DNA of 64,000 nt from Candidatus Aerophobetes bacterium Ae_b3b (GTDB lineage Bacteria > Aerophobota > Aerophobia > Aerophobales > AE-B3A). The notes under the pieces are model-generated. The model searched no databases, was not told the origin of the DNA, and was given only the letters and a program-made list of their open reading frames with translations. Location of the stretch: the NCBI GenBank assembly GCA_005223085.1, contig NJBP01000005.1, positions 1-64,000 on the forward strand, read 5' to 3'. This document shows, in pieces, positions 5,284-60,144 of this stretch (its first letter is position 1; each line of letters opens with the position of its first letter). The translations under genes and the position numbers were made by a program.

Positions 5284-5423
5284 GTAAATGCTTAGTAAAC
5301 GCCGTGTCACATTGAATTTTCAGGGTAGCCGCACCCTTTAGGGTGCGCATAAACGCAGGCTAAGATTTTGCGCAGGCTGAAGCCTGCGACTACCAAAAAT
5401 GACGGGGTTCACTGAATACTTAC
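5284..5423. mobile_element. IS66-type MITE, copy 1, with nested REP pair
   Basis: The 140-bp element has imperfect terminal inverted repeats. The left end starts GTAAATGCTTAGTAAACGCC, and the right end reversed starts GTAAGTATTCAGTGAACCCC. Flanks ATACAGTG and GTACAGGG agree at 6 of 8 positions, consistent with a decayed 8-bp target duplication. GTAA termini plus 8-bp duplication are the hallmarks of IS66-family elements. No transposase is encoded, so it would be moved in trans. A second copy lies at 39579-39695. Confidence 0.75.
5324..5394. repeat. Inverted REP pair inside MITE copy 1
   Basis: Two palindromes in opposite orientation: GGTAGCCGCACCC/GGGTGCGC at the left and CGCAGGCTGAAGCCTGCG followed by ACTACC at the right. 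The outer GGTAG...CTACC ends are the same as those flanking the RAYT transposase at 32736-33278, so the pair looks like a BIME-type unit mobilised by that transposase and nested in the IS66-type element. Confidence 0.7.
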
Positions 5424-25486: not shown

Positions 25487-25570
25487 GATATAAAAAGTAC
25501 AAAGTTGAGAGATCGGACCATTTGCTAAGATTCTGAGACCCTTGAGAGTAGCAGGAAAATATTAGCATTC

Positions 25571-25780
25571 AGGAGATTTATACGCGTATCGAGGGACTTT
25601 GCCCGAAGGAGCCTTATATCAGCCACCTTAACGAGTCTTCGAGTTAAGGAAGAAGAAAGACGTGATGTCTGAGGAGCGGAGCGAGGAGTTTCACGTCTTT
25701 CCCGAGACGAGAAGACGAGCAGAAACAATCGAAAGTCGATATACAGCGACGAAGGGGAACAGTCCCGAGATATCCTTGAG
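25571..25780 (+). ncRNA. Structured leader RNA before recA (homologous to the one before mrdA)
   Basis: This 5' leader matches the sequence before mrdA (34782-35030). Three helices are visible. The closing helix TATCGAGGGACT (25587-25598) with AGTCCCGAGATA (25761-25772) has a tandem G.A/A.G mismatch. The second is CCTTAAC (25626-25632) with GTTAAGG (25643-25649). The third is a perfect 10-bp stem AAAGACGTGA (25656-25665) with TCACGTCTTT (25691-25700), enclosing the purine-rich GTCTGAGGAGCGGAGCGA. Base changes between the copies keep the pairs. The recA Shine-Dalgarno (GAGGAGG) starts right after the closing helix. I do not recognise the family. Confidence 0.65.
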
Positions 25781-25790
25781 GAGGATAGAT

Positions 25791-26825
25791 ATGAGAGAAG
25801 AGAAGATGAAAGCTCTGGATATAGCCAGGCAGCAGATAGAGCGCCAATTTGGCAAAGGATCACTTATGCGCCTGGGGGAAAGAGCGGCCAGGATGGATGT
25901 GGATGTAATTCCCACAGGGAATATTGCCGTGGACGCGGCTCTGGGTATAGGAGGGCTTCCCCGGGGAAGAGTAGTGGAGATATTCGGTCCTGAAGGGGGT
26001 GGTAAAACTACTCTGGCTTTGCATGCTGCTGCTGAAGCTCAAAAAATGGATGGAGTAGTTGCTTTTATTGATGCGGAGCACGCCTTAGATCCTACCTATG
26101 CAAAAAATTTGGGGGTGGATATGGAAAACCTTCTCATCTCCCAGCCTGACTCTGGAGAGGAGGCTCTGGAGATAGCTGAACTTTTAGTACGCAGTAATGC
26201 CATAGATTTGATTATCATAGACTCAGTGGCTGCTCTGGTTCCCCGGGCCGAGCTGGAAGGGGATATGGGTGATTCCCACGTTGGGCTTCAGGCAAGGCTT
26301 ATGTCTCAAGCACTTCGTAAGTTAACCGGAGCGATAAGCAATTCTAAGACCTGTACCATCTTTGTCAATCAATTGAGAATGAAGATTGGAGTAATGTTTG
26401 GCAATCCAGAGGTAACTCCAGGAGGTCGGGCTCTCAAGTTTTATGCCAGCATAAGAATAGATATTCGAAGGAAAGCATCTTTGACCAAGGGGGATGTGCA
26501 GATAGGCAACAGAACCAAAATCACTGTGGTTAAGAACAAGCTCGCTCCACCTTTCAGGAAAGCTGAATTTGACCTACTTTTTGGAGAGGGGATGTCTCAG
26601 GAGGGAAGCATTTTGGATCTGGGAGAAGATCTTGGCATTCTTAAAAAATCGGGAAGCTGGTATTCTTACGGAGATACCCAATTGGGGCAGGGAAAGGAAA
26701 GTGCCCGAGAGTTTCTTAAGGATGTAAAAAATGCTACTCTGAGGAACGAAATTGAGCAAAAAATTGGGGGAAAATTGGGTTTTATAAGAAAAAAGAAGGA
26801 GACGGTTAAGGCTAAGGTTGAGTAA
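25791..26825 (+). CDS. recA: Recombinase RecA
   Basis: A 344-residue RecA, normal length. Walker A is GPEGGGKTT at residues 66-74, Walker [11 protein letters not shown], then loop L1 with [20 protein letters not shown] and loop L2 with [20 protein letters not shown]-type sequence. It forms filaments on single-stranded DNA, catalyses strand exchange and triggers SOS cleavage. The start is ATG 25791: it has GAGGAGG upstream and gives the family N-terminus. A longer frame from 25662 only reads through the structured leader. Walker A differs from the usual GPESSGKTT by two Ser to Gly changes. Regulation may act through the leader since no LexA box is evident. Confidence 0.95.
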
Positions 26826-26868
26826 AACAGCACCAGATTCAAGTAAGACACATAGAAGTTGAAGCAGA

Positions 26869-28023
26869 ATGAATAAGATCAGCAAAATATTAATCCTTCT
26901 TGCTTCTTTACTCTTGTTCGCTTCTTCCGCAAAGGCCTATCAAGATTATGGAGTTGAGAAAGTAGGTTTTCACTCCTATCTCACCTATACCCGGATAGTT
27001 CTGGAGATATCTGGCGAAGTTGGTTACATTGTCAGGGATCTAACCAGTCCACCTCGATTGCTGATTAACCTTTATCCGGCTAAACTTACTTCTTTGGAGC
27101 GAAAAATTGATGTAAAAGATAGATTTATTAGGGGGCTTCGTCTCTCGCAGGATAGCAAACATGTGACCAGGGTCGTCCTGGATTTAACGAATTTTGAGTC
27201 TACCTATAATATCTTTTCCTTGAAGGGGCCTCATCGTCTAGTTATCGAGGTAAAAAGTCCGAAGAAAGATCCAATAGCGGATCTATTGAAACCACAAGGA
27301 TTTCCTTACTATTTGCGTGAATCGGTTTCGGAGGAATACAGGAGAGTTTATAAAGTAATATTAGATCCTGGACATGGGGGGGAAGATCCGGGAGCAATTG
27401 GCCCCACTGGTTTAAAAGAGAAAGATGTTGCCCTTGCCGTGACCCTGGAGGTAGCTAATCTCTTAAAAGAGGAAGCAGGGATTGACATTTATCTAACCAG
27501 GACGGATGATTCTTTTATTCATCTGGATCTGAGGACAGAGTTGGCTAACCAATGGGGAGGGGATCTTTTTGTATCCATACATGCCAATGCAGCTTTTAAC
27601 CAAAAGGCAAGCGGTATAGAGACTTTTTTTAATTCCCGGTACCCATATGGAGAAGGGGCAGCAGCAGTGGCGGCCAGAGAAAATACTTCTCTGGGAGCTG
27701 ACGACGTTTCAGGGGAAATTAAGGCCATTCTCTGGGATTTAGTGCAGAATCGATATCGAGACGAAAGCAACGAATTATCCCATTTTGTGCAGAGGCAATT
27801 ATGCCAGGCTATAGACGTCGAGGATAGAGGGGTAAAATCAGCCGGATTTTATGTCCTAAGGGGAGCAGCCATGCCTGCTATTTTGGTAGAGATAGGATTT
27901 ATCTCCAATCCCTGGGAGGAGCAAAAACTAAGAAAAGGTGAATTTAGAAAAAAAATTGCTCGGGGCATCTTTAGAGGAATAAAAGATTATCTTGAAAGTT
28001 ATGATGAGAGATCAAGTAGGTAA
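26869..28023 (+). CDS. N-acetylmuramoyl-L-alanine amidase with AMIN domain (AmiC type)
   Basis: A 384-residue exported cell-wall hydrolase. It has a signal peptide (residues 5-23), an AMIN domain (about 28-130) that targets septal or peptidoglycan sites, and an Amidase_3 domain (about 160-375). The zinc site is built from ILDPGHGGEDPGAIG (His), KEKDVAL (Glu), and FVSIHANAA (His), with catalytic Glu in VEIGFISNPWEE. It cleaves between MurNAc and the peptide stem, for daughter-cell separation. A GerMN-domain gene follows and then a murI start, an order seen in other bacteria. A 10-bp hairpin immediately after its stop may separate expression of the two genes. Confidence 0.9.
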   Translation: MNKISKILILLASLLLFASSAKAYQDYGVEKVGFHSYLTYTRIVLEISGEVGYIVRDLTSPPRLLINLYPAKLTSLERKIDVKDRFIRGLRLSQDSKHVTRVVLDLTNFESTYNIFSLKGPHRLVIEVKSPKKDPIADLLKPQGFPYYLRESVSEEYRRVYKVILDPGHGGEDPGAIGPTGLKEKDVALAVTLEVANLLKEEAGIDIYLTRTDDSFIHLDLRTELANQWGGDLFVSIHANAAFNQKASGIETFFNSRYPYGEGAAAVAARENTSLGADDVSGEIKAILWDLVQNRYRDESNELSHFVQRQLCQAIDVEDRGVKSAGFYVLRGAAMPAILVEIGFISNPWEEQKLRKGEFRKKIARGIFRGIKDYLESYDERSSR

Positions 28024-28054
28024 ACCCTGTTAGATGATCACTACCTAACAGGGT
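28024..28054 (+). promoter_or_regulatory. Intercistronic hairpin between amidase and GerMN genes
   Basis: ACCCTGTTAG and CTAACAGGGT form a perfect 10-bp stem with an 11-nt loop directly after the amidase stop. No U-tract follows, so mRNA 3'-end protection is likelier than termination. Confidence 0.5.
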
Positions 28055-28069
28055 AAATGAGAGGCTAAG

Positions 28070-28648
28070 TTGGCTTCACGCAAAAAGAGGCGAAAATATC
28101 TGTTAGTTTATATCCTCGTTGTAGTAGGGGTCTTTGTGGTGGGAGTATTGGTAGGTCCATTGCTCAGAGAAAAGGGATATCAGATTAAAGATTGGGTTAT
28201 TCAGCCCCGTCCTCCTCGAGAGATGAAGGTGGTGAAACTGTACTTTTCTGATCCCCAAGCAGAACATCTCATCCTTGAGGAAAGAAAAGTGGTAGCCTTA
28301 CCTGATATGAGTGAGGAGGCTAAAGAAATATTGAAAGAATTAATTAAAGGCCCTCTTGATAGCTCCCTTAAGCCAACCATTCCTCTTCAAACAGAGGTGG
28401 AAGATGTTTATTTGAAGGATGACTGTTTTTATGTAAATTTTTCTTTGGCTTTAAAAGAGAAGCATCCTGGAGGATCTAGCGGGGAACTACTTACTGTATA
28501 CTCCATAGTTAATACCCTCCTTATTAACTTTCCCTCCCAATCGCGGGTACAAATCTTAATCCAGGATAAACCTGTGGAAACTCTCGCCGGACACATTGAT
28601 ATTAGAAACCCTTTGCGCCAGAGACTCGATATTGCAAAGGAACCCTGA
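28070..28648 (+). CDS. GerMN-domain protein, membrane anchored
   Basis: A 192-residue protein starting at TTG 28070. An N-terminal membrane anchor (about residues 10-32) is followed by a GerMN domain: MKVVKLYFSDPQAEHLILEE, then EEAKEILKELIKGP, then EVEDVYLKDDCFYVNFS, then ELLTVYSIVNTLL and VQILIQDKPVETLAGHID. GerMN domains occur in spore germination and cell-envelope proteins and are often encoded beside amidases, as here, which suggests an envelope role on the periplasmic side. It does not imply sporulation. The start is weakly supported; no ATG lies nearby in frame. Confidence 0.8.
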   Translation: MASRKKRRKYLLVYILVVVGVFVVGVLVGPLLREKGYQIKDWVIQPRPPREMKVVKLYFSDPQAEHLILEERKVVALPDMSEEAKEILKELIKGPLDSSLKPTIPLQTEVEDVYLKDDCFYVNFSLALKEKHPGGSSGELLTVYSIVNTLLINFPSQSRVQILIQDKPVETLAGHIDIRNPLRQRLDIAKEP

Positions 28649-28652
28649 GAAG

Positions 28653-28796
28653 ATGAACTCCCGTTCAGAATCAGAAAGTGCAAGAATAGCTGTCTTTGAC
28701 TCAGGTGTAGGAGGACTTACTGTTGTTTCGGAAATAATGAAGCTTCTTCCTGGGGAGGGGAAGAGTCCCGAGATATTTCTTGATTTGGAAGGATAA
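28653..28796 (+). pseudogene. murI: Truncated glutamate racemase gene
   Basis: ATG 28653, 5 bp after the GerMN stop, starts a normal MurI N-terminus: IAVFDSGVGGLTVVSEIMKL, then LPGE, which includes the catalytic-site DSGVGGL. The match ends at about 28757 and the frame continues through unrelated GKSPEIFLDLEG to TAA at 28796, giving 47 residues instead of about 265. The break coincides with a 21-bp repeat (28763-28783) found elsewhere in the window. D-glutamate for peptidoglycan must come from another racemase or a D-amino-acid transaminase outside the window. Confidence 0.75.
28763..28783 (+). repeat. Dispersed 21-bp repeat, copy at the murI break
   Basis: The core AGTCCCGAGATATTTCTTGA also occurs at 37861-37881, with one change at 53228-53248, and inverted at 60124-60144. 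It closely matches the 3' edge of the recA leader (25761-25779). Confidence 0.7.
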
Positions 28797-28815
28797 GGAT
28801 AACTAAAGGATCACC

Positions 28816-29493
28816 ATGTTTCAGGAGAAAAACTCAGTGATTTTCCAGGGAAAAGAATTTGCTTTTACCATTTTATGCAGCATCTTCATCGGGTCACTGG
28901 TGATTTCCGAGGTATTGGCCAGTAAAATTGTTGCTCTAGGGGAGATCTACGTCCCGGCGGGAGTAGTTGCCTACGCGGTAACTTTTGCCATGACCGATAC
29001 CATTGAAGAAATCTGGGGGAAGAGGTATGCCAGAGCCGTAGTGATTGGCGGACTTCTAACACTGGGTGTGGTTCTTTTTCTAATGTGGCTTGCCGTAATC
29101 TTGCCTTCTGCTCCATTCTGGAAAGAAGAAAAAGCATTTACGCGTATTTTAGGAATAAAGGCAGGAGCAATCAGAATAACTATGGCTAGCATAGTTGCTT
29201 ATTTTGTCAGCCAGTACCACGATGTCTGGGCCTTTAATTTTTGGAGACGGATCACCAGAGGACGATGGCTCTGGCTGCGTAATAACGCTTCCACCCTTGT
29301 TTCTCAGGCTATAGATACTTCTCTGTTTATATCTTTAGCCTTCTATGGAGTTGTTCCCGTTGTGCCTTTAATTCTAGGACAGTATTTCGTTAAATTGTGT
29401 ATTGCTCTCCTTGACACTCCCCTGGTCTATCTCCTCGTCTACTGTGTGAGAGGGAAAACCACAGTGACCGAAGAGTCCCGCGGTGTTTCTTGA
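28816..29493 (+). CDS. Queuosine precursor transporter (YhhQ/VUT family)
   Basis: A 225-residue inner-membrane protein with six hydrophobic segments. YhhQ landmarks are SLVISEVLASKIVALGEIYV near the N-terminus, VTFAMTDTIEEIWGKRYAR after the third strand, YFVSQYHDVWAFNFWRR, and RNNASTLVSQAIDTSLFISL. It takes up the queuosine precursor preQ0/preQ1 or queuine for tRNA modification. No queuosine synthesis genes are adjacent. It starts 20 bp after the truncated murI, so it may have been placed here by the rearrangement that removed the rest of murI. Confidence 0.85.
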   Translation: MFQEKNSVIFQGKEFAFTILCSIFIGSLVISEVLASKIVALGEIYVPAGVVAYAVTFAMTDTIEEIWGKRYARAVVIGGLLTLGVVLFLMWLAVILPSAPFWKEEKAFTRILGIKAGAIRITMASIVAYFVSQYHDVWAFNFWRRITRGRWLWLRNNASTLVSQAIDTSLFISLAFYGVVPVVPLILGQYFVKLCIALLDTPLVYLLVYCVRGKTTVTEESRGVS

Positions 29494-29518
29494 CAACTCT
29501 CCTTTTTTGTCTTAGAAT
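29490..29518 (+). promoter_or_regulatory. Sigma-70-type promoter for the E2 gene
   Basis: Consensus TTGACA (29490-29495) and TAGAAT (29513-29518) with ideal 17-bp spacing, about 42 bp upstream of ATG 29560. Confidence 0.6.
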
Positions 29519-29559
29519 TTATTTACCAATTCCGTCAAGCAGTTGCTAGGAGGCAGATT

Positions 29560-30732
29560 ATGATCAGTAAGGTGATAATGCCCAAGTTGGGAGAAACTAT
29601 GGAGGAGGGAGAGATTATCCAGTGGTTAAAACACCAGGGAGACAGAGTCAAGGAAGGAGAACCGCTCTTGGAAATTGCCACTGATAAGGCCAATATGGAG
29701 GTAGAGGCACTTTCTTCTGGATTCTTGAGAGAAATTGTTGCTCCGGCAGGTGAGATTGTACCAGTAACCAAAACCATTGCTTATATTGCCGATACTATGC
29801 AGGAAGAGATTTCTCAGGAGGCAGAGGCACCCGAGAAACCGGCTCAGAAAAAAGTCCCAGAAGAACCGCTCATCCAGTCACCTATTAAGGCCTCCCCCCT
29901 GGCCAAAAAGCTAGCCAGAGACTATGGGATTGACCTTTCTACTGTAAAGGGAAGTGGTCCAGGAGGAAGAGTGCTTAAGGAGGATGTAATTAAATTAGCC
30001 GAGGAAAAAGAAACTGTCGCGGAAAAGGCAGTTTCTCTTTCGCGGATAGAAAAAGTCATGGTCCAGCGAATGGAGAAGAGCAAAAGGGAAATTCCCCATT
30101 TCTATCTTACTGTAGAAGTTGACTTCTCGAAATCCCAAGCCCTGCGAGATGATTTACTAAAAGAATTTGAGCAGAGAGAAAAAGTTCGACTTTCCTACAC
30201 GGATCTATTAATTAAGTCTTGTGGCCGTGCTTTGAGTAAATTTCCCCGGGTAAATTCAACTTTCGAGGCCGGCAGAATCACTTCACACTCAGAGTTTAAT
30301 GTAGGACGAGCTGTGGCTACACCCAAAGGGCTCATCGTCCCGGTGATTAAGGATGTAGATAAAAAAAATCTTTTCCAAATAGCTAGGAAAAGAAAAGAGT
30401 TGGTTAAAAAGGCAAATGAAGACCGTCTTTCTCTAGAGGAATTAGAGGGAGCCGCCTTCACTCTTTCTAACCTGGGAATGTTTGGAATTAAGACATTCGT
30501 TGCCATAATCAACCCTCCACAGGCATCTCTTCTAGCTACTGGAGAAATTAAAGAAAGGCCAGTGGCCATAGATAATAGAATAGAGATAAGGCCTATGATG
30601 GAGATGACTCTATCTTGCGATCATCGAGTGATGGATGGATACCTAGGAGCAAAATTCCTGCAGGAGATAAAGCGGGGATTGGAAAGGCCTTCTCTTTTAT
30701 TAATTGAGATTGCTTCACTCCGTTCGCAATGA
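29560..30732 (+). CDS. Dihydrolipoamide acyltransferase (E2) of a 2-oxo acid dehydrogenase complex
   Basis: A 390-residue E2 with three parts. The lipoyl domain (1-78) carries the lipoylated K43 in EIATDKANMEV. The E1/E3-binding domain (about 107-143) reads SPLAKKLARDYGIDLS then GSGPGGRVLKEDV. The catalytic acyltransferase domain (about 160-388) ends with the HxxxDG active site in SCDHRVMDGYLG. It passes acyl groups from E1 to CoA, most likely acetyl in pyruvate dehydrogenase. No E1 or E3 gene is next to it in the window, which is unusual because these normally form an operon. It has its own consensus promoter. The last residues run into a repeat containing an IS66-type end. Confidence 0.88.
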   Translation: MISKVIMPKLGETMEEGEIIQWLKHQGDRVKEGEPLLEIATDKANMEVEALSSGFLREIVAPAGEIVPVTKTIAYIADTMQEEISQEAEAPEKPAQKKVPEEPLIQSPIKASPLAKKLARDYGIDLSTVKGSGPGGRVLKEDVIKLAEEKETVAEKAVSLSRIEKVMVQRMEKSKREIPHFYLTVEVDFSKSQALRDDLLKEFEQREKVRLSYTDLLIKSCGRALSKFPRVNSTFEAGRITSHSEFNVGRAVATPKGLIVPVIKDVDKKNLFQIARKRKELVKKANEDRLSLEELEGAAFTLSNLGMFGIKTFVAIINPPQASLLATGEIKERPVAIDNRIEIRPMMEMTLSCDHRVMDGYLGAKFLQEIKRGLERPSLLLIEIASLRSQ

Positions 30733-30755
30733 CCAGCGAGTGATCTCGCTCGTAA

Positions 30756-30779
30756 TGACGTGGTTGAGTGAATACTTAG
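30756..30779. repeat. Single IS66-type terminal repeat relic
   Basis: TGACGTGGTTGAGTGAATAC followed by TTAG matches the right end of the MITEs at 5284 and 39579 (TGACGGGGTTCACTGAATAC, TTAC). A small hairpin AGCGAG/CTCGCT lies just upstream at about 30735. No left end is recognisable. Confidence 0.5.
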
Positions 30780-30791
30780 ATGGAGAGGGCC

Positions 30792-31430
30792 ATGTTTACC
30801 GGAATAATAGAGGAGATGGGGACAGTAGAAAAATTATGGATTGGCTCTTCTTATAGGTTGAGAATAAGAGCAAAGAAAGTATTGCCGGGAACCAAACCTT
30901 CCCACAGTATAGCGGTAGACGGGGTTTGTTTAACGGCGACTGAGGTAGACCGGGAAAGTTTCTCGGTCGAAATAATGGCTCAAACCCTGAATAAAACTAA
31001 TTTATCTCTGATGAAAGAAGGAGATAAAGTCAACCTAGAAAGAGCGACATCTCTATCATCTCTCTTAGGGGGACATATAGTAACTGGGGATGTGGATGGA
31101 GTGGGCAGGATATCGAGAATAGATAAAAGGGTGGGGGAGACCGTAATGCAGATTGAATTTCTCCCACGTCTGGCAAAATATATAGTCAATCAAGGTCGTG
31201 TGTCTTTGGATGGGGTTAGTTTAACCGTAGCTGATTGTCGAGCTTCGAATTTTACCGTCCACCTTATTCCTTTTACCTTAAACAACACCACCCTGGGTCT
31301 AAAAAAAAGAGGGAATTTGCTTAACCTGGAGGTAGATATAATTTCTAAATATATAGAGAAAATGATCCATAATCAAAGTGGTTCTGGCTCGAGAATAGAT
31401 AGAGGATTTTTAAAAGCTATGGGGTATTGA
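30792..31430 (+). CDS. ribE: Riboflavin synthase, alpha chain type
   Basis: A 212-residue protein made of two lumazine-binding domains. Each has its own start, MFTGIIEEMGTVEKL and later GHIVTGDVDGVGRISRI, with the conserved SIAVDGVCLTAT in domain 1 and GRVSLDGVSLTVAD in domain 2. It dismutates two molecules of 6,7-dimethyl-8-ribityllumazine to riboflavin. ATG 30792 fits the family start and has GGAGAGG upstream; an earlier ATG (30780) would add four residues. It is the first gene of ribE-ribBA-(insertion)-ribH. No FMN riboswitch is seen upstream. ribD is not in the window. Confidence 0.92.
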   Translation: MFTGIIEEMGTVEKLWIGSSYRLRIRAKKVLPGTKPSHSIAVDGVCLTATEVDRESFSVEIMAQTLNKTNLSLMKEGDKVNLERATSLSSLLGGHIVTGDVDGVGRISRIDKRVGETVMQIEFLPRLAKYIVNQGRVSLDGVSLTVADCRASNFTVHLIPFTLNNTTLGLKKRGNLLNLEVDIISKYIEKMIHNQSGSGSRIDRGFLKAMGY

Positions 31431-31497
31431 ACTGAAAACCAGAAAAGTGCCAATAAGAATTTGTAAGGTTCCCAAGTAATTTACAAGAGGTGAGATA

Positions 31498-32706
31498 ATG
31501 AAGTTTAATCCCATAGATGAAATTATGAAGGACTTCAAAAAAGGTAAGATGGTGATCGTGGTGGACGACAAGGATAGAGAAAATGAGGGTGATCTTATAG
31601 TCCCCGCTTCCCAAGCCACTCCTGAGGTGATAAACTTTATGGCTAAATATGGAAGAGGGTTGATTTGTCTGGCTATCACTTCTGAGAGGGCCCGGGAGTT
31701 GGGGCTTAGTCCCATGGTAAATGAAAACACCTCTCTCAAAGGGACTCCCTTTACTGTCTCCGTGGATGCCAAGCATAATACTACTACTGGAATATCTGCC
31801 TATGACCGAGCCCGGACTGTAGGAGTTCTCATTCACCCTCAGACTAAAGAGGAAGATCTGGCAAAGCCTGGTCATGTGTTCCCATTAATTAGTAAGAATG
31901 GAGGAGTTCTCGTAAGAGCCGGTCATACCGAGGCAGCGGTAGATTTAGCCAGATTAGCGGGATTTTACCCGGCAGGGGTTCTCTGTGAGATGATGGGAGA
32001 AGATGGCAGGATGGCCAGACTTCCTGAGCTTTTATCTTTCGCTGCTCACCATGGTTTGAAGATATGTAGCCTGGCCGACATCATATCATATCGTTGGAAG
32101 AAGGAAAAACTGGTTAAAAGAGAAGTTGTTACCGATCTTCCTACTCACTACGGGAATTTTAAACTCATCGCCTACAGGACTCTCCTCGAGGATAGGATTC
32201 ATCTTGCTCTGATAAAAGGAAAAGTAAGAAATAAAGAGGATGTTCTGGTGAGGGTGCATTCTCAATGCCTTACGGGAGATGTTTTCAGATCCCTTCGCTG
32301 TGACTGCGGGGATCAGCTTGAGATTGCCTTATACATGATAGGAAAGGCAAGCCATGGCGTGGTACTTTACTTAAACCAGGAGGGGCGTGGAATCGGATTA
32401 TTAAATAAGCTCAAAACATATGTGCTTCAGGACAGAGGGATGGATACGGTGGAGGCAAATCAGAAGCTTGGTTTTGAGCCAGATTTACGTAGTTATGGAA
32501 TTGGAGCTCAGATCCTTGCCGATTTAGGACTTCACCGGATCAGACTTTTAACCAATAACCCTCGCAAAATAGTGGGTTTAGAGGGGTATGGGTTGGAGAT
32601 TAGCGAACGCACTCCTTTAGAGATAAAGCCTAACCGCGTAAACAGGGAGTATTTGAAGACCAAGCAGAAGAAACTCGGTCACCTGCTGAGTTTCGATAAG
32701 GAATAG
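31498..32706 (+). CDS. ribBA: Bifunctional 3,4-DHBP synthase / GTP cyclohydrolase II
   Basis: A 402-residue fusion. The N-terminal DHBP synthase (1-205) has [15 protein letters not shown] and [14 protein letters not shown], which bind ribulose 5-phosphate and Mg. The C-terminal GTP cyclohydrolase II (about 210-395) has the zinc cysteines in [20 protein letters not shown], and [14 protein letters not shown], plus [15 protein letters not shown]. The two activities feed both branches of riboflavin synthesis. Catalytic residues appear intact in both halves. It follows ribE by 67 bp. A heptamer repeat and a REP/RAYT insertion separate it from ribH. Confidence 0.94.
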
Positions 32707-32707
32707 T

Positions 32708-32735
32708 ATTAAGTACTAAGCATTAAGTACTAAGT
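32708..32735. repeat. 14-bp tandem duplication (2 x 7 bp pattern) before the RAYT element
   Basis: ATTAAGTACTAAGC is followed directly by ATTAAGTACTAAGT; each half is itself two related heptamers (TTAAGTA, CTAAGC/T-). It abuts the left REP of the insertion at 32736. Confidence 0.6.
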
Positions 32736-33278
32736 GGTAGCCGCAGGCTTCAGCCTGCGTAGAGAAATGATAAACAGAAATGTTAGAGAAAAGAAACACC
32801 GGTTACCTCTGCACTGCTACCTGGGGCAGGTAAGGGTAACCTTCACTCTTTGTATTGAAGACAAAAGACCCTTTTTTGTGGAAAAGGCAATAGTGGATAA
32901 GTTCATAGAAATCCTAAGAGAAGCGAAGGAAAAGTATAATTGTAAAAATTGGGTATATATGTTCATGCCAGATCATTTGCACGTCGTTAATGAAGGTATT
33001 TCAGACAGTTCTGATTTATGGAAAATGATGAATTTTTTCAAACAAAAGACTGGTTTTTGGCTATCGCGGAATAAAAAAGGAACGAAATGGCAAAAAGATT
33101 TTTATGACCATGTTCATCGGAAAGAAGATGATTTAAAGAAGCACATAATCTACATTCTGGATAATCCAGTAAGAAAAGGGTTAGTCTCTGATTGGAAAGA
33201 TTATCCTTCCAAAGGGTCACTGGATTTTAGCTTGGAAGATATTATTTCATGAAACGCAGGATAAATCCTGCGGCTACC
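32736..33278 (+). mobile_element. RAYT element flanked by inverted REP hairpins, inserted between ribBA and ribH
   Basis: The left end GGTAGCCGCAGGCTTCAGCC continues TGCG, and the right end is ACGCAGGATAAATCCTGCGG followed by CTACC. The ends are inverted copies of one REP, each with an internal CGCAGG/CCTGCG hairpin. The transposase gene lies between them. This is the structure expected for REP-associated tyrosine transposases (IS200-related Y1 HUH enzymes). No target duplication is expected and none is seen. Confidence 0.8.
32767..33252 (+). CDS. REP-associated tyrosine transposase (Y1 HUH, RAYT)
   Basis: A 161-residue Y1 transposase-like enzyme. The HUH metal motif is HLH in MPDHLHVV (about residue 69), and the catalytic Tyr is in [15 protein letters not shown] (about residue 132). 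[20 protein letters not shown] and [16 protein letters not shown] are typical RAYT blocks. It nicks single-stranded DNA at REP sequences to spread them. The start is placed at ATG 32767, after the left REP; the frame is open through the REP but that part is non-coding. All key residues are present, so it may be active, and REP pairs with the same ends occur at 5324 and 39619. Confidence 0.88.
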
Positions 33279-33329
33279 AATTCAAAAAAGGCAAATATTT
33301 TTGACAATACCGCCGAATGGGAGGAAGTT

Positions 33330-33797
33330 ATGAAAAATTATAAAGGGAAGATAAGGGGTAAAGGACTAAGATTTGGAATAATAGTTTCACGTTTTAATGA
33401 GTTTGTCACTGAGAAACTTTTGGAAGGAGCCCTGGACGCACTCGAGAGGCATGAGGTGGAGGAAGAAAATATTGAGATTATTTGGGTTCCTGGTTCTTTT
33501 GAAATCTCGGCTCTAGCCTCAAAGCTAGCCAAAAAGGAAAGATTTAATGCTCTGATCTGCTTGGGGGCTATTATTCGGGGTGAGACACCTCATTTTGAGC
33601 TGATATCATCTCAAGTAGCTCGAGGAATCGCCACCTTAGCTTTAAAGGAAGAAATCCCCGTTATTTTTGGAGTCATTACTGCCGATACTTTGGAGCAGGC
33701 AATCGAGAGAGCAGGTACTAAAGCAGGAAACCGAGGTTGGAACGCAGCCGTGTCTGCTATGGAAATGGTGGATCTTTATCAACAGGTGCAGAAATAG
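33330..33797 (+). CDS. ribH: 6,7-dimethyl-8-ribityllumazine synthase
   Basis: A 155-residue lumazine synthase. Substrate-binding segments are [20 protein letters not shown] (residues 15-34), [30 protein letters not shown] with catalytic His, and [14 protein letters not shown], with [13 protein letters not shown] at the end. It condenses the RibBA product DHBP with the pyrimidine intermediate. ATG 33330 has GGGAGGAAG upstream and matches the family start; the frame is open further up through the REP. It belonged to the same operon as ribBA before the RAYT insertion. Confidence 0.93.
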
Positions 33798-34702
33798 CTA
33801 GAGGAAATACAAAGAGGGCCAACACCAAGATCTGGACAGTTAAGAAGAGCCTCAAGTGGGCTACCCGGTATTTGGAAGAAAGAGGAATCGAGAATCCCTG
33901 CCTGACCTCGGAACTTCTACTGAGTCAACTTTTACAGAAGAAACGTTTCCATCTTTATCTTGACGGGGATCGAGATCTTCCTGGTTCAGTTCGTACCCTT
34001 TTCCTAAATTTGGTCAAAAAGCGTGGTCAATATGTCCCCCTATCTTATCTTACCGGCAGCCAAGATTTCATGGGTTACAGTTTCAAGGTGAATCCGAGGG
34101 TCTACATACCCCGTCCTGAGACCGAGATATTAGTAGAAAAGGTTCTTGAAGTAACTAGTTTGCCAAGAGGAAGAGAATTTATTGCCGTTGATCTGGGAAC
34201 GGGCTGTGGAAATATTGCCATAACTTTAGCCAAGCAATTAGAAAGATCAAGGATCTGGGCGGTCGATATTTCACCCGAGTCTTTGGAAGTCGCCAGATGC
34301 AATGCCCAATTGCATTATGTGGATAAAAAGGTTGAGTTTTTAAGGGGAGATTTATTTACTCCTCTTATCAGGCTAGGCTTAGAGAGAAGAGTTGATTTAG
34401 TAATTTCCAATCCTCCCTATGTAGCCTCCACTCAGATGAAGAATTTGCCACCTGAGGTAAGAAAAGAACCGAAGGTGGCTCTGGAAGGCGGGGAAGAAGG
34501 ATTGAGTGTGCATAGAAGAATTATCTGGCAAGCTCCTCGTTTTTTGAATAGAGGAGGTCTTCTTGCTCTAGAGATTGGATGCGGTCAGGTCAAGATTATA
34601 AAGGATTTAATTTCGGCCCAACCTCAGCTTTTACCTCCTAAGATTGTCTCGGATTACCAAGGAAAGGAACGGGTAGTGCTTACAAGGAAAAGAAGTGATT
34701 AG
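33737..34702 (+). CDS. prmC: Peptide chain release factor N5-glutamine methyltransferase
   Basis: A Rossmann SAM methyltransferase modifying the GGQ glutamine of RF1/RF2. Landmarks are [26 protein letters not shown] (SAM site), and the catalytic [10 protein letters not shown]. The start is problematic. The family N-terminus ([20 protein letters not shown]) begins right after an ATC codon at 33830-33832, where homologues have Met. The only canonical in-frame start that keeps it is ATG 33737, which overlaps ribH by 61 bp and adds 31 unlikely residues. I give that start with low confidence in the first 31 residues; translation from ATC 33830 would give about 290 residues, the usual family length. 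Confidence 0.85.
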
Positions 34703-34781
34703 TGGTCAGGGTTTAATGAAAAACCAAGAGAGTTACCTAAGGCCTTGATTTCTTGATCAATAGTTTCTTTTCTTGAGATTT

Positions 34782-35030
34782 AGGAATTTATACACTTGTC
34801 GAAAGACATTTTCTGGTCCGAAGGAGGCGCAGCCGGAGCCTTATAGGAGCTACCTTAACGAAGCTTCGAGTTGAGGAAAAAGAAAGACGTGATGTCTGAG
34901 GAGCAGAGCGACGAGTTTCACGTCTTTCCCGGCCGTTAAGGTGCCGCAGGCAACGAGAAGCTGAGCAGAAATAATAAAAGGCTACTATACAGCGACGGAA
35001 GAAAATTGTCCTGAGACATTTTTTTGAGGA
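34782..35030 (+). ncRNA. Structured leader RNA before mrdA (homologous to the recA leader)
   Basis: Homologue of 25571-25780. The closing helix pairs TGTCGAAAGACATTTTC (34797-34813) with GAAAATTGTCCTGAGACA (35001-35018), again with the tandem G.A/A.G mismatch. The second hairpin is CCTTAAC (34853-34859) with GTTGAGG (34870-34876), where one U-A pair has become U.G. The third is AAAGACGTGA (34883-34892) with TCACGTCTTT (34918-34927). About 25 extra nt are inserted after the third stem. The mrdA Shine-Dalgarno GAGGAG follows the closing helix. It occupies most of the 335-bp gap between prmC and mrdA. Confidence 0.65.
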
Positions 35031-35037
35031 GTAAATT

Positions 35038-36804: not shown

Positions 36805-37861
36805 TTCTCGACCATACGATTGGCTACTTCTATTGGCGGTCTTAGGTCTTTCTCTGGGTGGACTTTTCCACCTTTATACGATTTCTTTTGTTCATCAGTC
36901 TTATTATTTTTTTCGCCAGATAGCCTGGGTGGGGATAGGATTGGGACTGCTAGTTCTATTTTCTTATCTTCGGATCAGTCTATGGGAGAAGGTAGCTCAT
37001 CTTTTTTATTTGGCAATTTTTATTACCCTCCTTTTGGTATTATTTAGAGGAGAAGGTGCACATGGTGCACAGAGGTGGTTCAGGCTGGGGACATTTAGTT
37101 TCCAGCCCTCTGAGTTTGCTAAACTCAGCCTCATCATTGTTTTAGCTAAGTTGCTGGCTGCCAAGGATAATATAGGATGGAGACAAATAGGTCTATCTTT
37201 TTGTTTTACTTTCCCTTTCCTTATCTTAGTCGCCCTGCAACCTGATCTGGGAAGTGCTCTCATTTTGCTTCCACTTTGGCTGGGGATGCTCTTTTTGGCC
37301 GGTGTCTCTCCGAGAAAGCTTCTTACCATTCTGGGAATAGGGGCATCTTCCTTTCCATTTTTTTATTTATTGTTACGTCCCTATCAAAAGATGCGTATTC
37401 TGACCTTTTTGAATCCCGGTCGAGATCCTCTTGGCACAGGGTGGGCCGTCCTACAGTCTAAGGTTGCTCTAGGTTCAGGAAAATTAGTAGGCAAAGGTAT
37501 TGGAGGAGCTCTTCATACCCAACTCAGTTTTCTTCCTCAACCCTTTACGGATTTTGTATTCGCCAGCATTGGTGAAGAGTGGGGATTTGTTGGAACAGGG
37601 ATTTTTATAGGACTGTATTTTGTCATTATAACTAGAGGCATGAAGATAGCTAGACAATCTACCAATGGTTTTACCAGGCTGGTAAGTGGTGGTCTGATCA
37701 TTCTATTATTTTTCCAGGTTTTTATTACCGTGGGAATGACGATAGGGATCATGCCTGTTACCGGTATGCCTTTACCTCTGGTGAGCTATGGGGGAAGTTC
37801 TATTATAATGTTTTTTCTGGGGATGGGATTATTGCTCAGTATGAAGAGATTCGGGGAATAG
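36794..37861 (+). CDS. rodA: RodA, SEDS peptidoglycan glycosyltransferase
   Basis: A 355-residue SEDS protein with about ten membrane helices. Landmarks are GAHGAQRWFRLGTFSFQPSE, in which the loop arginine and WF.LG are conserved, then PDLGSALILL, and LPQPFTDFVFASIGEEWGFV with the catalytic Asp region, ending PVTGMPLPLVSYGGSS. It polymerises lipid II into glycan strands for elongation with PBP2. ATG 36794 lies inside the last codons of mrdA, so translation is coupled. The stop codon TAG merges with the dispersed 21-bp repeat. Confidence 0.93.
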   Translation: MYPDSRPYDWLLLLAVLGLSLGGLFHLYTISFVHQSYYFFRQIAWVGIGLGLLVLFSYLRISLWEKVAHLFYLAIFITLLLVLFRGEGAHGAQRWFRLGTFSFQPSEFAKLSLIIVLAKLLAAKDNIGWRQIGLSFCFTFPFLILVALQPDLGSALILLPLWLGMLFLAGVSPRKLLTILGIGASSFPFFYLLLRPYQKMRILTFLNPGRDPLGTGWAVLQSKVALGSGKLVGKGIGGALHTQLSFLPQPFTDFVFASIGEEWGFVGTGIFIGLYFVIITRGMKIARQSTNGFTRLVSGGLIILLFFQVFITVGMTIGIMPVTGMPLPLVSYGGSSIIMFFLGMGLLLSMKRFGE

Positions 37862-37881
37862 AGTCCCGAGATATTTCTTGA
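37861..37881 (+). repeat. Dispersed 21-bp repeat, copy after rodA
   Basis: Identical to the copy at 28763-28783 (core AGTCCCGAGATATTTCTTGA). It begins at the last base of the rodA stop codon, and its end forms part of the next -35 box. Confidence 0.7.
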
Positions 37882-37905: not shown

Positions 37906-37999
37906 GAATGCACCTGAGGTATAGAATTTCAATAATTTCTCTGAATTGTTATCAAGTAAACCTTGGCAATCGAGATATCAGAAAAAAAAGAGGGGAGCA

Positions 38000-38090
38000 G
38001 GCTCGACTTGCTCGAGCGAAGCGAGAGTCGGCTTTGCCGATCGAGCCGTCGAGGGGGGATATTTCCCCCCTCGAGTATCTTGGTGGGGGA
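38000..38090 (+). promoter_or_regulatory. Highly structured leader: three-way junction plus G/C hairpin next to the ribosome-binding site
   Basis: GGCTCGA (38000-38006) pairs with TCGAGCC (38041-38047) around two small hairpins, CTCG/CGAG (38011-38025) and CGGC-TTT-GCCG (38029-38039). It is followed by a 10-bp hairpin CGAGGGGGGA (38050-38059) with TCCCCCCTCG (38064-38073). The C6 tract could alternatively pair with the Shine-Dalgarno GGTGGGGG (38082-38089), so it may control translation of the next gene. Confidence 0.5.
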
Positions 38091-48139: not shown

Positions 48140-48498
48140 TGGTGGAGGCGGAGGGAATCGAACCCTCGTCCAGAGACAAAACCATCGGAACATCTACATA
48201 TTTAGTCTACATTTTGAATTCATCTTTCCTCCCTCCTGTAGACGAGATGAAGGAAAGACTAGCAGCTCTCGAGTATTCGCTTTGTTTCCCATCTGCCTGG
48301 AAACAAAGCTAGCTCTACTTTCTCACGCCTCTTTTACTCCGTAGAGCAAAAGTAAGGAGACGTAGCTACTTAGTTGTAGCTAAAAGCTAACGTTGGATTA
48401 GCGTTTAAGTTTAGTTGCCGGATGGATTTACAAGGTGTCCGGCGACCCTTGCTATGCCATTCCGATTTTTCTATCCCTGTCGAAACCGTTTCGCCCCC
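48140..48498 (-). ncRNA. ssrA: Transfer-messenger RNA (tmRNA)
   Basis: A 359-nt one-piece tmRNA. The 5' end GGGGGCGAAACGGTTTCGAC pairs through GGGGGCG with CGCCTCC before the 3' ACCA (48143-48140 on the minus strand). The T arm reads GAGGGTTCGATTCCCTC. Pseudoknot 1 is visible: CAAGG/CCTTG with GCCGGA/TCCGGC. The resume codon is best placed at GCT (48402-48400), preceded by U-A at -5/-4 as in known tmRNAs. The tag frame runs to TAA at 48372-48370 and would read ANPTLAFSYN, lacking the usual terminal Ala-Ala. smpB lies 11 bp upstream. Confidence 0.93.
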
Positions 48499-53227: not shown

Positions 53228-53248
53228 GAGTCCCGAGATACTTCTTGA
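53228..53248 (+). repeat. Dispersed 21-bp repeat, variant copy
   Basis: AGTCCCGAGATACTTCTTGA, one base different from the copies at 28763 and 37861. It lies between two transporter operons. A strong AAGGAGGTGG further on (53267) precedes only a six-codon frame (53280-53300). Confidence 0.6.
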
Positions 53249-60123: not shown

Positions 60124-60144
60124 TCAAGAAATATCTCGGGACTT
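60124..60144 (-). repeat. Dispersed 21-bp repeat, inverted copy
   Basis: Reads AGTCCCGAGATATTTCTTGA on the minus strand. It occupies the position where the pfkB-like gene's ribosome-binding site should be. Confidence 0.65.

Follow-up and report, generated by a model that had tools for sequence, protein, structure and literature searches.

A probably mobile, MITE-like folded repeat of Candidatus Aerophobetes whose terminal TTGA commonly forms the -35 box of the downstream promoter

The sequences that precede recA and mrdA in Candidatus Aerophobetes bacterium Ae_b3b are copies of a dispersed repeat, which very probably represents a non-autonomous, MITE-like mobile family of Candidatus Aerophobetes. 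In about 60% of 57 copies the terminal TTGA of the repeat serves as the -35 box of the promoter that follows, typically with a spacer of 16-17 bp. The copies at recA and mrdA are recent inserts within operons. The window analysed here is the stretch of 64,000 nucleotides at positions 1 to 64,000 of contig NJBP01000005.1 (forward strand). In the following, G000 denotes the genome of the window itself (2.04 Mb, 86 contigs) and G001 denotes its sister species.

The segments 25571-25780 and 34782-35030 had been described in the earlier note as homologous structured leaders. This homology is confirmed by identity at 177 of 208 aligned positions (85%) and by an alignment score of 283, as compared to a mean of 108 (sd 7.4, maximum 128) in 200 shuffles. 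The complete recA copy (25546..25779, + strand) is located between a LigT-like gene and recA, and the mrdA copy (34757..35027, + strand), which carries two additional small inserts, is located between prmC and mrdA; in both cases the flanking genes run in the same direction. The closing helix P1 with its tandem GA reads TATC-GA-GGGAC/GTCCC-GA-GATA in the recA copy (25587-25597 with 25762-25772, + strand) and TGTC-GA-AAGAC/GTCCT-GA-GACA in the mrdA copy (34797-34807 with 35008-35018, + strand). The AAAGACGTGA/TCACGTCTTT stem is indeed unchanged between the two, and the Shine-Dalgarno sequence (SD) stands directly 3' of the closing helix in both. The compensatory differences are explained by membership in different subfamilies, the recA copy belonging to the one dominant in this species and the mrdA copy to an older one found family-wide. 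The small 7-bp hairpin CCTTAAC/GTTRAGG, listed in the same note as a further recurrent helix, displays no covariation at all and is disrupted in 4 of the 29 copies examined; its bases find better partners further downstream, within the long rod described below.

Using the recA copy as query, 53 alignments at about 40 places and on either strand were obtained in G000, with about ten other full copies being 93-95% identical to the query. The same query matched G001-G011 and G014, and a query from a second subfamily found matches in 14 of 17 genomes, G002 alone contributing 54. Related subfamilies are present in relatives of the same genus, family and order, while no match was seen in 44 genomes outside the order or in viral contigs. 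An exact core-pattern scan of 84,980 species genomes returned 47 stretches. Their only sources are MAGs of Candidatus Aerophobetes and two MAGs that bear the name "Clostridia" and whose loci correspond to genomes placed in the window's own family. The repeat was thus found in Candidatus Aerophobetes only. The comparison with Rfam proposed in the earlier note gave no credible match for either leader copy: none up to E=10 for the recA copy and for L202, a copy of another subfamily, and none at the gathering threshold for the mrdA copy (classes including HEARO, riboswitches and ribozymes). At gathering threshold, the window contains a single Rfam match, a tmRNA gene (48140-48498, - strand).

No copy is present upstream of recA in any of 15 relatives, or upstream of mrdA in any of 16. 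G001 displays clean empty sites at both positions, with a flank identity of 87-95%. Further empty sites of this species correspond to L022, L024, L030 and L038, and at these four the promoter is intact, with TTGAC as -35 box, so that the -35 box predates the insertion. The repeat begins right after TTGA, which in the recA copy lies at 25542..25545 (+ strand); the left consensus is CTTGA followed by TAGTACC..., and this TTGA is common to the G001 empty sites of other copies. The right end reads ...GAGATATTTCTTGA or near variants thereof and terminates with TTGA in most copies, including recA (25776..25779, + strand, followed by the SD GGAGG at 25780-25784 and the recA ATG at 25791) and mrdA (35024..35027, + strand, followed by the SD GGAG at 35028-35031). 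TTGA occurs at both sides of L020, L022, L024, L028 and others, and is the longest sequence common to both flanks in all well-preserved copies. It is hence either a 4-bp target duplication or a tetranucleotide used for cleavage and borne by the right end, as in IS200/IS605.

For 57 distinct right ends with enough downstream sequence, TTGA is followed by C in 41, and the pattern TAnnnT is found at a spacer of 16-18 from the right end in 34, as compared to 1-7 at control offsets of equal width (binomial estimate 2e-27). Of 37 copies in G000, 34 are followed by a gene that reads away from their right end (p=1e-7). Both leader copies fall into the minority of about 40%, as insertions within operons where TTGA stands directly before the SD; the apparent link of the SD with the closing helix hence results from insertion at a TTGA directly preceding the SD. 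These two copies are probably co-transcribed from upstream, with at most a secondary effect on expression.

The earlier note had offered two readings of the leaders, a cis-regulatory RNA joining recombination to wall growth, or a mobile element that recruits itself to leaders. The second is borne out insofar as dispersed copies, TTGA junctions, empty sites, subfamilies and internal deletions all point to a mobile element; recruitment to leaders is not, since insertion takes place after TTGA, mostly that of a -35 box. As to the first, a dedicated leader RNA controlling recA, mrdA and other genes post-transcriptionally would agree with the strongly conserved fold (the recA copy folds better than its shuffles, z=-3.6), with the in silico pairing of the right end with the recA SD, and with the orientation of the copies towards genes. 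However, the copies are missing at recA and mrdA in all relatives that possess these genes, which refutes a conserved recA/mrdA riboregulator. Moreover, a right end that forms the -35 box places the repeat upstream of the respective transcription start and outside the leader of that promoter, which applies to most of the other copies. Near-identical copies precede unrelated genes, Rfam is silent, and the mrdA copy folds no better than its shuffles (z=-1.0). Taken together, we regard a leader RNA of this kind as highly improbable.

The position directly upstream of -35 boxes and the orientation towards genes could also be explained if the repeats were retained as upstream promoter elements or insulators of the genes which they precede. 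Yet orthologous promoters of the sister species keep their -35 and -10 boxes without the repeat, and at some orthologous sites copies have been lost or shortened, which makes retention of this kind very unlikely. A point against the MITE-like reading is that some sites, L017/L112 among them, differ between the two species in a manner suggestive of secondary deletion or re-insertion.

The architecture of the family is MITE-like. Full copies comprise about 215-245 bp, which inserted modules can extend to about 380 bp, within an overall range of about 43-380 bp; they are short, dispersed and multi-copy, with no internal transposase gene, and none of the copies read contains a gene between its ends. 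The ends are inverted repeats, forming a closing helix of 15 pairs plus the tandem GA, which is kept even in minimal copies consisting of little beyond the ends (TATC-GA-GGGA-CTT-TCCC-GA-GATA). The interior is modular, with two inserts, a filler hairpin subfamily common to G001 and G002, and a short form in G009 from which the P3/P4 arm is missing. In L106 (15259-15438), L181 (3968-4154) and L199 (2608-2811) of G001 and G002, a near-repeat filler (GTGAATAGTGAATGG...GATTCACGAAATACGATTCACC) takes the place of the interior; it resembles a palindromic repeat of its own, and similar AACTATGAACTACG runs are found upstream of mrdA in G003 and G006. Furthermore, a GC-rich hairpin module (GGGGAGCAG...GTCGAGGGGGGATATTTCCCCCCTCGAG) occurs solitarily at 37950-38080 and in L027, and a close relative of it is nested as an insert inside many copies of the repeat, which indicates a second dispersed repeat family.

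Right-end-only copies are numerous, and left-only copies exist in G001. The window itself contains four right-end fragments, at 28754..28783 (+ strand, GGGGAAGAGTCCCGAGATATTTCTTGA), at 37854..37881 (+ strand, after a rodA-like ORF, with its TTGACA being the -35 of TTGACA-16-TATATT), at 53228..53248 (+ strand, AGTCCCGAGATACTTCTTGA) and at 60124..60142 (- strand). The first of these adjoins a stretch resembling the start of murI (glutamate racemase), together spanning 28654-28783, where the sister species carries filler repeats; a comparable coding-like stretch is fused to a right-end fragment in L038.

The fold was assessed on a set of 29 copies, any two of which share less than about 95% identity, with a mean pairwise identity of 78%. 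A nested rod of 48 pairs is paired in 96.9% of the cells, as compared to 39-56% when slid by 1-3 columns. Double-sided changes are seen at 18 pairs and in 127 cells, as compared to shuffled means of 12.4 and 41.7, and neither value is reached in any of 500 shuffles; these counts exceed the number of independent events, as the copies are related to each other. Compensatory examples are P4, in which GACGTG/CACGTC becomes AATATA/TATATT, and P3, in which GTCTTC/GAAGAC becomes AGCTTC/GAAGCT. The tandem GA/GA of P1 is present in 26 of the 29 copies, and two have GA/TC, that is Watson-Crick pairs. In the recA copy (+ strand), covariation analysis places both arms of P1 as given above, the 5' strand of P2 (GCCTTATATCAGC) at 25611..25623 with its partner at 25735-25747, and the P3/P4 rod arm (GTCTTC-GA-GTT-..-stem-..-GAAGAC, helices 3-8), the unit that is missing in the G009 copies, at 25635..25716, with the stem inside it at 25656-25665/25691-25700. 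An alternative fold with a pseudoknot and the small hairpin was rejected, since the nested rod agrees better with the covariation. In the predicted fold, the right end of the recA copy (25768-25790, AUAUCCUUGAGGAGGAUAGAUAU) can form a hairpin hiding the recA SD, possibly a site-specific accident.

Within the helices, G-T occurs in 95 cells and A-C in 12 (25 versus 7 pair columns, p=0.002), a bias that possibly stems in part from the choice of the fold. This excess of G-T over A-C indicates that it is the sense strand that folds, either as RNA or as single-stranded DNA. The inverted-repeat ends, the 4-bp TTGA at both sides and the internal deletion derivatives would all fit an ordinary double-stranded DNA MITE, moved by a DDE transposase that duplicates TTGA as its 4-bp target. 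However, a strand-biased wobble and a covarying interior are unexpected of the terminal repeats of double-stranded DNA, and an insertion sequence with these ends was not found; we consider this explanation rather unlikely. A folded interior that is conserved across families is beyond what a plain MITE needs, which also weighs against the MITE-like reading in general.

The unpaired motifs of the repeat are invariant across families, which together with the single-strand-specific covariation would agree with a mobile element that has an RNA product, namely an orphan guide RNA of the TnpB/IscB type, or an RNA that a reverse transcriptase copies in trans. In the guide version, the target motif would be TTGA, with the flank past the right end serving as guide; indeed, the left TTGA and the variable flank past the right end are arranged as in TnpB-type elements, TnpB genes are present in G000, and right-end-only copies abound. 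Against this, minimal copies and filler subfamilies recur without most of the RNA, the TnpB loci that were fetched are dissimilar to the repeat, the left-only copies of G001 weaken the signature of 5' truncation, and the right-only copies are explained by deletion with retention of the -35 box. An RNA product of this kind thus appears distinctly unlikely. Kinship of the repeat to the TnpB elements of this genome was rejected for their lack of similarity to it, and retrotransposition with 5' truncation was rejected in view of the left-only copies and of orthologous sites, which indicate deletion.

Based on this dataset, we hypothesize that the mobile repeat is recognized by its mobilising machinery as a folded single strand, and that this strand has been selected for mobility. 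An enzyme supplied in trans would recognize the fold and place the element after TTGA, and the element's own TTGA end would then restore the -35 box, or the spacing before the SD. Since -35 boxes begin with TTGA, many copies reside in promoters, where their right end supplies the -35 of the host anew, correctly spaced from its -10. Such a self-restoring junction may render gene-adjacent insertions tolerable and able to survive under selection, which would explain why the repeats nearly always face the downstream gene. Later deletions would more readily remove the left part than the right end with its promoter box, which would account for the many right-end fragments, including the four in the window.

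As mobiliser, a single-strand transposase of the HUH/Y1 type (IS200/IS605-like) that acts in trans is the likeliest candidate, a tentative assignment held at somewhat less than an even chance, with a double-stranded DNA transposase or an RNA-level route as alternatives. An autonomous parent with the same ends was not seen in G000, in about 0.86 Mb of G001 or at 47 other loci, the genomes being incomplete. Y1 transposase genes are present in the carriers G000, G002, G009, G011 and G014, and also in the non-carriers G013 and G016; they were not found in the carriers G001, G003-G008 and G010, and are missing from 7 of 8 same-family genomes with the repeat, all of which are incomplete MAGs. Kinship to the IS200-like genes of G002, G011, G013 and G014 was rejected, as no ends are shared and the Y1 copies are too divergent to define borders. 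The window holds a Y1/RAYT-like transposase gene (32734-33252, PF01797, 172 aa) between ribAB and ribH, flanked by the inverted palindromes GTAGCCGCAGGCTTCAGCCTGCG / CGCAGGATAAATCCTGCGGCTACC, which differ from the recA/mrdA repeat; the same REP-like palindrome recurs at window position 5371 and in L037, L042, L048 and L050, which indicates a separate REP system.

More speculatively, the repeat could be a phylum-specific element whose spread requires a conserved fold, of RNA or of a single DNA strand, and which has become a specialist of -35 boxes: on entry it would rebuild the promoter with its own right end, and genes would stay on; we think this conceivable but rather doubtful. The family illustrates how a mobile repeat can survive in the most sensitive surroundings of a gene, by using the leading TTGA of the -35 box as target and then returning it. 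It also calls for caution, since homologous "leaders" that share a structure and differ by compensatory changes may belong to subfamilies of a mobile repeat, with no role as riboregulators. In addition, the repeat can usefully serve as a marker when genome dynamics are followed in this uncultured phylum.

Several known systems resemble the repeat in part. Elements of the IS200/IS605 group (ISDra2, IS608) insert at the 3' side of short targets, for example TTGAT or TTAC, carry subterminal single-strand hairpins and produce no conventional target duplication. The Aerophobetes repeat is likewise inserted 3' of a short target, but it lacks an internal transposase gene and forms one long rod, not two end hairpins. 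REP/BIME are non-autonomous palindromic intergenic repeats for which mobilisation in trans by a RAYT (TnpA-REP), an HUH Y1 enzyme, is assumed (PMC8266576); the Aerophobetes repeat differs in having no unit of GTAG plus palindrome beside a RAYT. BOX elements of Streptococcus pneumoniae are small, modular (67-637 bp), multi-copy, strongly folded and mobile-looking, with no mobiliser of their own being known, and both BOX and RUP are enriched in the gaps that separate convergent genes (PMC3049150). The architecture of the Aerophobetes repeat is similarly small, modular, multi-copy and folded, whereas it is directed at gene starts and located at -35 boxes, in an unrelated host. Correia elements (CREE) of Neisseria are MITEs of about 200 bp with terminal inverted repeats, often located upstream of genes, which interact with promoters, form stem-loops in transcripts and carry promoters of their own (reviewed in PMC10969869). 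The Aerophobetes repeat shares the MITE-type size of about 200 bp, the inverted-repeat ends and the frequent location upstream of genes; in contrast to Correia elements, it keeps the promoter of the host, with the -35 box as target. Among MITE-like small interspersed repeats, the nesting in -35 boxes, the strict gene-ward orientation and the conserved, covarying interior are unusual.
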